A stretch of 64,000 nucleotides of DNA from NCBI GenBank assembly GCA_021774735.1, contig JAJFIS010000031.1:1-64000 (forward strand), given 5' to 3'. Positions 1,925-14,298 of the stretch are shown one piece after another. The DNA comes from Alphaproteobacteria bacterium. GTDB lineage: Bacteria; Pseudomonadota; Alphaproteobacteria; Sphingomonadales; Kordiimonadaceae. The stretch's first letter is position 1, and each line of letters begins with the position of its first letter. Both the position numbers and the translations under genes were made by a program. The notes under the pieces are model-generated. The model did not search any database. It was given only the letters and a program-made list of their open reading frames with translations, and was not told the origin of the DNA.

Positions 1925-2214
1925 CATCTCTGAGACATTATGATGTAATCCAAAGCCCAGTGATCACCGAAAAGGCGACGCTTGGTAGTGAATATAACCA
2001 AGTGACTTTTAAAGTTTCATTAGACGCAACAAAGCCTGAAATTAAATCAGCTGTTGAAGCGTTGTTTGATGTGAAAGTGAAAAAAGTTACTACGCTGCGC
2101 CAGCAAGGCAAGATCAAGCGTTTCAAGGGCATTCAGGGCAAGCGCGCTGAATATAAAAAAGCCACTGTAACATTGGTCGATGGGCACAGCATCGACGTAA
2201 CGACAGGGGTCTAG
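1921..2214 (+). CDS. rplW: 50S ribosomal protein L23
   Basis: L23 sits at the exit-tunnel mouth and is the docking site for SRP and trigger factor. The 97-residue product has family landmarks: [13 protein letters not shown] near the N-terminus, [17 protein letters not shown], and [14 protein letters not shown]. It starts with ATGA overlapping the rplD stop, which indicates translational coupling. Length and position are normal for the S10 operon. Confidence 0.97.
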
Positions 2215-9723: not shown

Positions 9724-11061
9724 ATGGCTTCAGCGGCAGAACAGTTAGCTGCGAATATTAATTTTGGCTCGATTGCTAAGGCAGAAGAGCTGAAAAAGCG
9801 TATCTGGTTCGCCCTTGGCGCACTGGTCGTTTACCGTTTTTGCAGCTATATCACTCTGCCCGGTGTTGACCCGGTCCAGTTGAAGATTTTGTTCGAGCGC
9901 ATGCAAGGTGGCTTTCTGGATATGGTGAATACCTTCTCCGGTGGTTCGCTGCAGCGGATGAGCATCATTGCCTTGAACATTATGCCCTATATTTCTGCTT
10001 CAATCATTATGCAGTTGATGACCAGTATGTCATCGAAACTGGCACAATTGAAAAAAGAAGGCGAGCAGGGTCGCAAAAAGATCAACCAATATACCCGCTA
10101 TGGCACCGTGCTTTTGACCGTCGTGCAAGGCTTCACACTTGCTAAGGGCTTGGAAGCGGGCGGTGTTGTTACAGACCCGGGCTGGTTCTTTGAACTGACA
10201 ACCGTGGTCACGCTTGTGGGCGGCACCATGTTCTTGATGTGGTTAGGTGAGCAAATCACTCAGCGTGGTATTGGTAACGGCATCTCCCTGATTATTTTTG
10301 CAGGCATCGTGGCTGAACTGCCCGGTGCGCTGGCACAAGCTTTCGAGCTCAACAGCCAAGGTTCCATGACGCTCGCTGTATTGTTGGCTATTTTGGTGGG
10401 CTCTGCGGGGCTTATCTGGTTTATCGTTCTCTGTGAGCGGGCGCAGCGCCGTATTCTCGTGCAATATCCCAAGCGCCAAACCGCGCGTGGTGGGGGCATG
10501 CAGGCTGAAACATCGCATTTGCCAATGAAGCTGAATGTGGCTGGTGTTATCCCGCCGATTTTTGCCAGCTCGCTTTTGATGATGCCGCTTAGTGTTGCGC
10601 AATTTTATGCTGCGACCGAAGATGCACCACTTTGGTTGACCACCTTGACGTCTTATATGGGGCAAGGCCAGCCGATTTATATTGCGCTTTATGTGCTGTT
10701 GATCGTTTTCTTCTGTTTCTTCTACACGTCTATTCAGTTTAACCCTGAAGATGTGGCGGATAACCTGAAAAAGCAAAATGGTTTTGTGGCCGGCATTCGA
10801 CCGGGTGAACGTACCGCACAATATTTGGATTATGTTTTAACGCGTCTTACCGTTATCGGTTCAGCCTATTTGGCGGTGGTCTGTGTGATTCCCGAAGTTT
10901 TAATCAGCAATGCATCCATTCCTTTCTATATTGGCGGTACCAGCCTGTTGATTGTGGTGAATGTGACCATGGATACGGTTGGTCAGATCCATAGCCATTT
11001 GATGGCGCAGCAATATGAAAGCCTTATTAAGAAATCGAAAATCCGGGGGAAACGTCGGTGA
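9724..11061 (+). CDS. secY: Protein translocase subunit SecY
   Basis: SecY is the channel subunit of the SecYEG translocon in the inner membrane. The 445-residue protein has ten hydrophobic segments. Landmarks are GIGNGISLIIFAGI in the middle, the cytoplasmic loop with YPKRQTARGG, and PEDVADNLKKQNGFVAGIRPG toward the end. AGGAGTG precedes the ATG. The adk GTG start overlaps its stop by four bases (GTGA), so the pair is coupled. secY followed by adk inside the ribosomal block is usual in alphaproteobacteria. Confidence 0.98.
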   Translation: MASAAEQLAANINFGSIAKAEELKKRIWFALGALVVYRFCSYITLPGVDPVQLKILFERMQGGFLDMVNTFSGGSLQRMSIIALNIMPYISASIIMQLMTSMSSKLAQLKKEGEQGRKKINQYTRYGTVLLTVVQGFTLAKGLEAGGVVTDPGWFFELTTVVTLVGGTMFLMWLGEQITQRGIGNGISLIIFAGIVAELPGALAQAFELNSQGSMTLAVLLAILVGSAGLIWFIVLCERAQRRILVQYPKRQTARGGGMQAETSHLPMKLNVAGVIPPIFASSLLMMPLSVAQFYAATEDAPLWLTTLTSYMGQGQPIYIALYVLLIVFFCFFYTSIQFNPEDVADNLKKQNGFVAGIRPGERTAQYLDYVLTRLTVIGSAYLAVVCVIPEVLISNASIPFYIGGTSLLIVVNVTMDTVGQIHSHLMAQQYESLIKKSKIRGKRR

Positions 11062-11705
11062 TCTTGATACTGTTTGGCCCTCCCGGTGCTGGTAAAGGCA
11101 CACAGGCACAGCGCTTGGAAAAATCGCATGGACTTGTGCAATTATCCACTGGCGATATGTTACGTGCTGCAGTGACTGCAAAAACCGAGAATGGTGTGCG
11201 GGCGCAGGAAAAAATGGCGTCGGGCAAATTAGTATCAGATGATATTGTGATCGGTATCATTAATGAGCGGATCGCTGCAGAAGATTGTAAGGGTGGTTTT
11301 ATTCTCGATGGTTTCCCGCGCACGGCTGCGCAGGCCGAAGCCTTGGATGAAATGCTAAATGAACAAGGCCTGAAATTGGATCATGTAATCCTAATGAGGG
11401 TCGATGACGACGCGCTGGTTGATCGGGTTTCCGGTCGATTTGCGTGCGGTGCCTGTGGCGCTGGCTATCACGATAGTTTTAAACCTACAAAGGTTGAAGG
11501 TGTTTGTGATGAATGTGGGGCTACTGATTTCAGTCGCCGCAAAGATGATAATAGGGAGACCGTGGCAACGCGTTTGACAGCATATTACGCTGACACCGCA
11601 CCAGTGTTGCCATATTATTCCGAACAGGGTGTTTTGACGCAAGTTGATGGCATGGCAGGGATCGATGAGGTTGCTGCTGAAATTGCTAGTGTTCTGGACG
11701 CTTAA
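11058..11705 (+). CDS. adk: Adenylate kinase with a four-cysteine lid
   Basis: Adenylate kinase interconverts ATP and AMP with two ADP in the cytoplasm. The 215-residue protein begins with the P-loop (LFGPPGAGKGTQAQRLE) and has the DGFPRTAAQAEAL motif. The lid domain carries CxxC twice (FACGACGAGYH and GVCDECGATDF), the pattern of the zinc-binding long form. Translation starts at a GTG overlapping the secY stop. The remaining 114 bases before rpsM hold a promoter. Confidence 0.97.
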   Translation: MILILFGPPGAGKGTQAQRLEKSHGLVQLSTGDMLRAAVTAKTENGVRAQEKMASGKLVSDDIVIGIINERIAAEDCKGGFILDGFPRTAAQAEALDEMLNEQGLKLDHVILMRVDDDALVDRVSGRFACGACGAGYHDSFKPTKVEGVCDECGATDFSRRKDDNRETVATRLTAYYADTAPVLPYYSEQGVLTQVDGMAGIDEVAAEIASVLDA

Positions 11706-11723
11706 AAAAAGTGTAACCGGGTG

Positions 11724-11761
11724 TTGACGGCGGGGCTTTAATGCATATAATCCCCGCTTTT
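11724..11761 (+). promoter_or_regulatory. Strong promoter of the rpsM-rpsK-rpoA-rplQ operon, inside a terminator-like hairpin
   Basis: TTGACG (11724-11729), a 16-base spacer and a perfect TATAAT (11746-11751) form a strong sigma-70-type promoter about 70 bases before rpsM. The same bases carry an inverted repeat, GCGGGG (11730-11735) and CCCCGC (11752-11757), followed by TTTT. In transcripts arriving from adk this could act as a weak terminator, while the DNA initiates a fresh alpha-operon transcript. The promoter call is strong; the dual role is inference. Confidence 0.7.
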
Positions 11762-11819
11762 GGCGCGTTCCCCGTGTTATGGACGTTGTTGTGTTATGTA
11801 ATGATCAGGAGAAACGATC

Positions 11820-12188
11820 GTGGCACGTATTGCAGGCGTAAATATTCCAACCAATAAAAGGGTTGAAATTGCGCTAACTTATATTCATGGAATTGGTCAT
11901 ACATCGGCCAAGGACATTTGCTCTAAACTCGGCTTTCCTTTTGAGCGCCGGGTTAATGAATTGTCGGATGCGGAAGTTATCCAAATTCGCGAAATGATTG
12001 ATGGCGACTTTAAAGTGGAGGGTGACCTTCGCCGTGAAGTAGCTATGAACATCAAACGTTTGATGGACCTCAAGACTTATCGTGGGCTTCGTCATCGGAT
12101 GAAATTACCTACTCGTGGTCAGCGGACGCATACAAATGCCCGCACGCGTAAGGGTAAAGCCGTCGCTATTGCCGGTAAGAAGAAATAA
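11820..12188 (+). CDS. rpsM: 30S ribosomal protein S13
   Basis: S13 sits at the top of the 30S head and contacts the P-site tRNA and the 50S subunit. The 122-residue protein starts at a GTG (11820), preceded by AGGAG (11808-11812). It shows [21 protein letters not shown] and the C-terminal [16 protein letters not shown]. It is the first gene of the alpha operon; a strong promoter lies just upstream. Confidence 0.97.
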
Positions 12189-14267: not shown

Positions 14268-14298
14268 AAAAGGCGGCTCAGCTAGGGTCGCCTTTTTC
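14268..14298 (+). terminator. Rho-independent terminator after rplQ
   Basis: AAAAGGCG (14268-14275) pairs perfectly with CGCCTTTT (14289-14296), and the T-run continues to 14297. It closes the ribosomal transcription unit. The stem and T-run are plainly visible. Confidence 0.85.

Follow-up and report, generated by a model that had tools for sequence, protein, structure and literature searches.

The region considered here is the 114-bp gap between adk and rpsM in a window of 64,000 nt, the term window denoting the whole stretch of DNA that was analysed. The genes and elements mapped in and beside the gap lie on its forward strand. The gene adk (11058-11705; Pfam ADK, 6.4e-55) is an open reading frame that closes the secY-adk unit, and its GTG start codon overlaps the stop codon of its upstream neighbour secY (9724-11061). 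On the other side of the gap, rpsM (11820-12188), recognized as an open reading frame and by Pfam, encodes ribosomal protein S13 and is the first gene of an alpha operon that in the window consists of rpsM, rpsK, rpoA and rplQ only. No rpsD, the gene for S4, was found within this operon among the open reading frames and Pfam matches; according to the available text of PMC10931766, rpsD is located apart from the alpha operon in alphaproteobacteria. The gap houses a promoter, a 6-bp stem and a TTTT run, followed by the Shine-Dalgarno sequence AGGAG (11807-11811), which is flanked by GATC on either side and forms a conserved block of columns in the alignments. The two GATC motifs could form a mini-hairpin (11803-11819) with AGGAG in its loop. 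This pairing is missing in some members of the window's family, and GATCGGGAGAAACGATC is strikingly conserved at the Shine-Dalgarno region in several loci of family f8. Downstream of rplQ, a canonical terminator-like hairpin with a T-rich tail (14268-14296) likely marks the end of the alpha operon.

The locus was compared across 29 genomes of the window's family, 28 of which gave an rpsM match, with upstream DNA readable at 27 loci. The window comes from a genome of Kordiimonadaceae type, and its genus, g1, is represented in this sample by the window genome only. Another 30 rpsM-upstream loci were picked from 118 genomes belonging to other families of the order.

A preliminary description of this DNA had placed a near-consensus promoter, TTGACG-N16-TATAAT, at 11724-11751 and had proposed that it starts new rpsM-rpoA transcripts. 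Letters and coordinates are right: a -35 element TTGACG (11724-11729) and a -10 element TATAAT (11746-11751), both near the sigma70 consensus, are separated by 16 nt, inside the usual 16-18 bp range, and a G+C-rich discriminator, CCCCGC (11752-11757), follows. A consensus scan ranks this site first of 12 in the first 18 kb, with agreement at 11 of 12 consensus positions. The pattern alone is no more than chance would give, since TTGAC-N16-19-TATAAT occurs six times in 2.78 Mb compared with eight occurrences of a reversed-pattern control; the promoter is convincing because of its position and conservation, not of match quality alone. At 26 of the 27 family loci, rpsM is preceded by TTGAC(G/C) and, 15 or 16 bp further on, by TATAAT or in one case TATACT, with CCCCG as the discriminator. 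The remaining locus, L020, has TATATG as its -10 element and retains TTGAC(G/C) and CGGGG/CCCCG, so that CCCCG is present in 27 of 27. Conservation ahead of rpsM thus bears out the proposed role, and the sequence makes a convincing candidate for a sigma70-type promoter driving rpsM-rpsK-rpoA-rplQ. From promoter geometry, transcription would begin some 7 nt downstream of the -10 element, within the region 11758-11761. The promoter extends beyond the family: 23 of the 30 rpsM loci from the order's other families and 26 of 76 from other alphaproteobacteria agree with TTGAC...TATAAT at 10 or more of its 11 positions. The discriminator in both of these groups is G+C-rich yet different (CGCGCG, CCCGCG and others).

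Superimposed on the promoter is an inverted repeat, which the preliminary description had also reported correctly to the letter. GCGGGG in the spacer (11730-11735) pairs with the discriminator CCCCGC (11752-11757) to give a stem of 6 bp, here called P2, with a loop of 16 nt. TTTT (11758-11761) follows directly, and GG comes after it. The 5′ arm is supported by sequence, fold and arm covariation. The TTTT run, in the predicted start-site region, does not belong to a conserved U-tract, as at least four consecutive T follow the stem only in the window and in L011 (TTTTT), which makes 2 of 27 family loci. The other 25 have three consecutive T or fewer, and relatives show GGCTTC or similar in place of the run.

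These features bear on the earlier proposal that the promoter is embedded in an intrinsic terminator which trims read-through from secY-adk. The perfect G+C stem and adjoining TTTT of the window, the TTTTT of L011, and in L020 an extended hairpin standing directly before UUUUUU all speak for it. The long loop, the run of only four T before GG and its rarity among relatives speak against it, and the 38-bp segment named in the preliminary description, folded alone, does not form an RNA structure beyond chance (z -1.09; 28 of 200 shuffles as good). In the available text of PMC7566282, the definition of terminators in Zymomonas, an alphaproteobacterium, includes 7-9 nt of U-rich RNA, a tract longer than the four U of the window. 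A terminator scan of the first 18 kb returned 27 terminator-like sites, among them the canonical one after rplQ; the segment 11724-11761 is absent because the scan admitted loops of 3-8 nt. Judged by U-tract, loop length and relatives, the intrinsic terminator was rejected, and we regard a terminator around the promoter as improbable. A separate observation concerns L020 (genome G028; about 2006-2100, minus strand), where GCAUA:UAUGC lengthens the read-through hairpin and UUUUUUGU follows it immediately, which points to a possible conversion of the element to a terminator in this genus.

P2 forms the end of a longer hairpin, which in the window spans about 11713-11780 and takes in the -35 flank as well as the beginning of the rpsM leader. 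Its basal part, P1, comprises in the family 16 pairs between a segment A, the -35 flank (11713-11727 in the window, overlapping the -35 element), and a segment B, the first ~20 nt of the leader (11760-11780 in the window). Segment A would be present in read-through RNA only, and segment B in both read-through and promoter-born RNA. Together P1 and P2 make an imperfect hairpin of ~65 nt with about 26 bp and small bulges in read-through RNA. The consensus structure derived from alignment A1, which covers the stretch between the adk stop codon and the rpsM start codon, pairs the -35 flank with the first leader bases. A structure-free scan of 1378 pairs of 9-column segments found the strongest covariation for A with B, for the spacer with the discriminator (P2), and for B with a segment C nearer the start codon. 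By eye, an AACUGUC/GACGGUU hairpin can also be drawn just after adk; the main model places these bases in P1.

Some loci were set aside for these comparisons. L018, L022 and L024 were dropped from the 27 because they duplicate other loci: L022 and L024 correspond to L021 and L023, and L018 equals L009 in the promoter core with a different flank. L029, at a contig edge, and L030, a second, weak match in G013, were set aside too. L020, with an adk-rpsM gap of 229 nt and a quite different leader but a persisting hairpin, was left out of alignments A1 and A3 and kept in A2; L008 was left out of A3 for its long insert. From A5, L015, L020, L028, L008 and L002 were deliberately held out.

Several measures agree on the hairpin within the family. 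A 74-nt promoter segment folds with a mean z of -4.75 over 24 sequences, each compared with 300 dinucleotide shuffles. Across 24 sequences, P1 and P2 have 85.6% of their cells paired and two-sided changes at 10 of 26 pairs, counted on the same sequences from which the helices were derived; none of 500 shuffles reaches either the paired percentage or the covariation score, and slid controls pair 38-48%. When spacer arms and discriminator arms of P2 were exchanged among 24 distinct family promoters, the mean cost was ~1.1 kcal/mol (-12.35 for natural and -11.26 kcal/mol for permuted combinations; 0 of 20,000 permutations as good). The signal comes from L002, L008, L011, L012 and L013, whose 3′ arm is unlike the common CCCCGGC, and from L028. 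Relatedness inflates such permutation tests, except in versions with one sequence per genus, and these give z -3.57 for P1 (6 of 20,000; 9 genera) and z -3.24 for P2 (13 of 20,000; 9 genera), with the control A:C going the opposite way (z +1.32).

Covariation also weighs on the simplest alternative, in which promoter function alone keeps the G-rich spacer and the C-rich discriminator, and the dyad is a by-product. Family columns in which CCCCG is invariant and GGG nearly so would suit it, as would a promoter kept without the hairpin in the order's other families. The P2 arms covary, however, and P1, which reaches past the promoter elements, covaries more strongly, so that promoter constraint alone seems an improbable account. 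Even less probable is an operator, with the CGGGG...CCCCG dyad over the -10 element serving as the repressor site of a ribosomal-protein regulon. Its arms do lie about two helical turns apart, but of the 29 family genomes, 21 contain GGGG-N7-11-TATAATCCCC, 20 of them at the rpsM locus, and occurrences elsewhere are limited to G015, G018 and G028. The dyad is thus nearly confined to the rpsM locus, which argues against a regulon, and a regulon operator was rejected on this ground. G-U cells are, moreover, tolerated far more than A-C cells (118 against 27 across P1, P2 and the leader helix P3 introduced below), and it follows that the thing selected is the RNA of the forward strand. This count excludes minus-strand RNA as the selected structure; minus-strand matches of the covariance model are weak (best E 0.003) and reflect symmetry.

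The hairpin is a property of the family. The same 74-nt segment has a z of -4.80 +- 0.28 in the family (n=23), -0.91 at promoter-bearing loci of the order's other families (n=22) and -1.08 in other alphaproteobacteria (n=26), with coding controls between -0.53 and -1.14. In other alphaproteobacteria, shifting the segment 14 nt upstream gives z -1.93, which indicates that some of them have other structure there. A covariance model of P1 and P2 locates the element at the rpsM locus of 28 of the 29 family genomes; in the 118 other genomes of the order it gives only five weak matches (E 0.02-0.5). An order-wide hairpin was rejected on the folding of the other families' loci. Since these families keep the same promoter without P1/P2, the promoter is independent of the hairpin and older than it. 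A comparison with related genomes, which the preliminary description had called for, accordingly divides: inside the family the inverted repeat and the promoter are conserved together, and in the order's other families the promoter stands without the hairpin. Apart from Alpha_RBS, no Rfam family matches the window between 8000 and 16000 at E up to 1, and a literature search, with subscription journals mostly outside its scope, found no published description of this element.

Other structures were seen near rpsM promoters elsewhere. Four loci of family f6 (L177, L179, L182 and L183) have a different hairpin upstream of rpsM with the -35 element in its loop, GAATCG.AATGG..CCATTCGATTC in L177; its arms appear to co-change between the four loci (z -2.45 to -0.41). 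L180 (family f2) has a strong stem at its rpsM promoter (z -4.09), in which the upstream flank is the partner of the -10 element and discriminator; the sequence of this stem bears no relation to that of the family hairpin. Loci L186, L193, L196 and L201 of family f8 carry terminator-like, T-rich inverted repeats downstream of adk, just ahead of the rpsM promoter.

The window itself is among the family's most divergent copies, and the argument is carried by the family as a whole. In the window, P2 is perfect and P1 partial, being shifted and interrupted (11713-11727 with 11760-11780), and the 74-nt segment folds weakly (z -1.59; 20 of 300 shuffles as good). The covariance model matches 11704-11781 at 48.7 bits, a score obtained with the window's own copy inside the model. 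Held-out confirmation of the structure was sought for the window and was not obtained, the structure model giving 27.0 bits and a sequence-only model 37.7; L015 behaves likewise (30.4 and 40.3 bits). For held-out L008, L028 and L020, the structure model exceeds the sequence-only model by 1.9, 2.9 and 4.2 bits, respectively.

Segment B also takes part in a second helix. P3 comprises 10 pairs between B and C; over 22 sequences its cells are 77% paired and 7 of the 10 pairs show two-sided changes, again counted on the sequences that defined it, and 0 of 500 shuffles do as well. The one-per-genus arm swap gives z -3.46 (5 of 20,000; 8 genera). P1 and P3 share strand B and are therefore mutually exclusive. 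In predicted ensembles of read-through RNA, A:B outweighs B:C in 22 of 24 sequences, and in predicted promoter-born RNA, the expected number of P3 pairs exceeds 7 in 10 of 24. For the window's promoter-born RNA the expected number of B:C pairs is 0.2, so P3 is not predicted there; a possible P3 seen by eye, GCGUUC/GGACGU (11765-11786), has poor support in the window and is suggested by family covariation.

P3 was also compared with Alpha_RBS (RF00140). The window scores 29.4 bits, below the gathering score of 38, which is reached at 8 of 17 family loci and at none of 18 loci from the order's other families (best 34.2), these 18 being a subset of the 30 picked. As the other families score 24-34 bits, part of the sub-threshold match is the coding start of rpsM. 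In alignments of five family loci, the Alpha_RBS stem falls on P3 in L006, L023, L019 and L011, and not in L016. Assignment of the window to Alpha_RBS was rejected on its score and on the lack of rpsD. A pseudoknot between stem-loop and translation start was looked for by eye and none was seen.

These observations suggest a leader whose structure depends on the origin of the transcript. A sigma70-type promoter of the alpha operon would lie inside DNA whose read-through RNA, coming from secY-adk, folds as a long hairpin. Transcripts started at the promoter would begin between P2 and strand B; lacking strand A, they would leave strand B free for P3, which would then be placed like the stem of an S4-type alpha-operon leader. 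In read-through mRNA, strand B would be held in P1/P2 and P3 blocked, and the two sources of alpha-operon mRNA could be translated or processed differently. The architecture predicts two rpsM transcript populations, which the growth-regulated hairpin formation envisaged in the preliminary description would require. P1/P2 ends near 11780 and leaves the Shine-Dalgarno sequence uncovered, so any effect on translation would be indirect. What computation gives directly is promoter conservation, the covariation of P1, P2 and P3, the exclusivity of P1 and P3, and the lack of the hairpin in the order's other families; the start site, the read-through and every functional consequence we infer. We put the probability that P3 forms in promoter-started mRNA and is locked away by P1/P2 in read-through mRNA at roughly 45%.

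The main rival is that P1/P2 is a processing or end-protection site, for example an RNase III cut or a stop for 3′ exonucleases. It would separate secY-adk mRNA from rpsM-rpoA mRNA, and the downstream piece would resemble promoter-born RNA, so that P3 re-forms and no switch in the strict sense exists. A hairpin of this length, with small bulges and just past the adk stop, would suit such a site, and L020 keeps the hairpin despite its degenerate -10 element and different leader. Processing alone, however, leaves the covariation of strand B with both C and A unexplained, and we consider this rival somewhat unlikely, though well ahead of the promoter-only, terminator and operator accounts. The origin-dependent leader, whose layout resembles that of phage T4 gene e, is favoured.

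A further step would make promoter-born mRNA repressible by a ribosomal protein through P3 as a feedback hairpin, while read-through from the spc operon hides the strand and escapes. This is a doubtful extension, a little less likely than the processing site. If true, one locus would supply S13, S11, RNA polymerase alpha and L17 at a feedback-insensitive baseline with a feedback-controlled supplement on top, and in Kordiimonadaceae the promoter itself would encode the switch strand. With rpsD outside the alpha operon in alphaproteobacteria, the mode of its autoregulation there appears to be an open question, and the reason for the separated rpsD is called open in the available text of PMC10931766. 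A covarying RNA element that overlaps a promoter and competes with a leader hairpin offers a concrete, testable target. It also implies that selection on RNA structure can act on the spacer and discriminator of a promoter, which bears on how promoter conservation is read. For the locus as a whole, the promoter stands and the terminator fails; the small stem tops a family-wide hairpin, which overlaps promoter DNA and competes for strand B with a leader hairpin.

The element shares parts with several known systems. With alphaproteobacterial sigma70 promoters, the window's promoter has the -35/-10 architecture in common. It has a T at -7, unlike the more than 60% of promoters in several Alphaproteobacteria from which this T is absent, as given in the available portions of PMC8407463 and PMC7566282. 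Like intrinsic terminators, the window has a G+C stem followed by T; unlike them, the stem has a long loop and a short T-run and is not conserved as such.

Alpha_RBS, the S4-regulated alpha-operon leader of gammaproteobacteria, occurs at the same gene and position as P3, and each is one stem upstream of the rpsM Shine-Dalgarno sequence. In the E. coli alpha leader the loop pairs with the translation start site. No counterpart of this pairing was seen by eye in the family leader, and rpsD, which in Alpha_RBS systems lies inside the regulated operon, is outside it in the window.

The closest parallel comes from phage T4. In the leaders of gene e (lysozyme), soc, 49 and I-TevI, a helix forms in upstream-initiated transcripts only, its 5′ strand being encoded where the downstream promoter lies, and this arrangement is conserved in related phages, as described in the available text of PMC3014915. 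Gene e and the family locus both have a promoter in the DNA of the helix 5′ strand; in the family, P1 overlaps the -35 element and P2 the spacer, and both covary. The T4 helix hides the Shine-Dalgarno sequence and AUG of the phage gene (PMC3014915, same text), whereas P1/P2 instead takes the strand of a leader hairpin. Unlike the phage leaders, the family element belongs to the chromosome, at a ribosomal-protein operon whose promoter is of the sigma70 type, and, if the origin-dependent leader is real, would be a chromosomal ribosomal-protein example of the layout described for T4.
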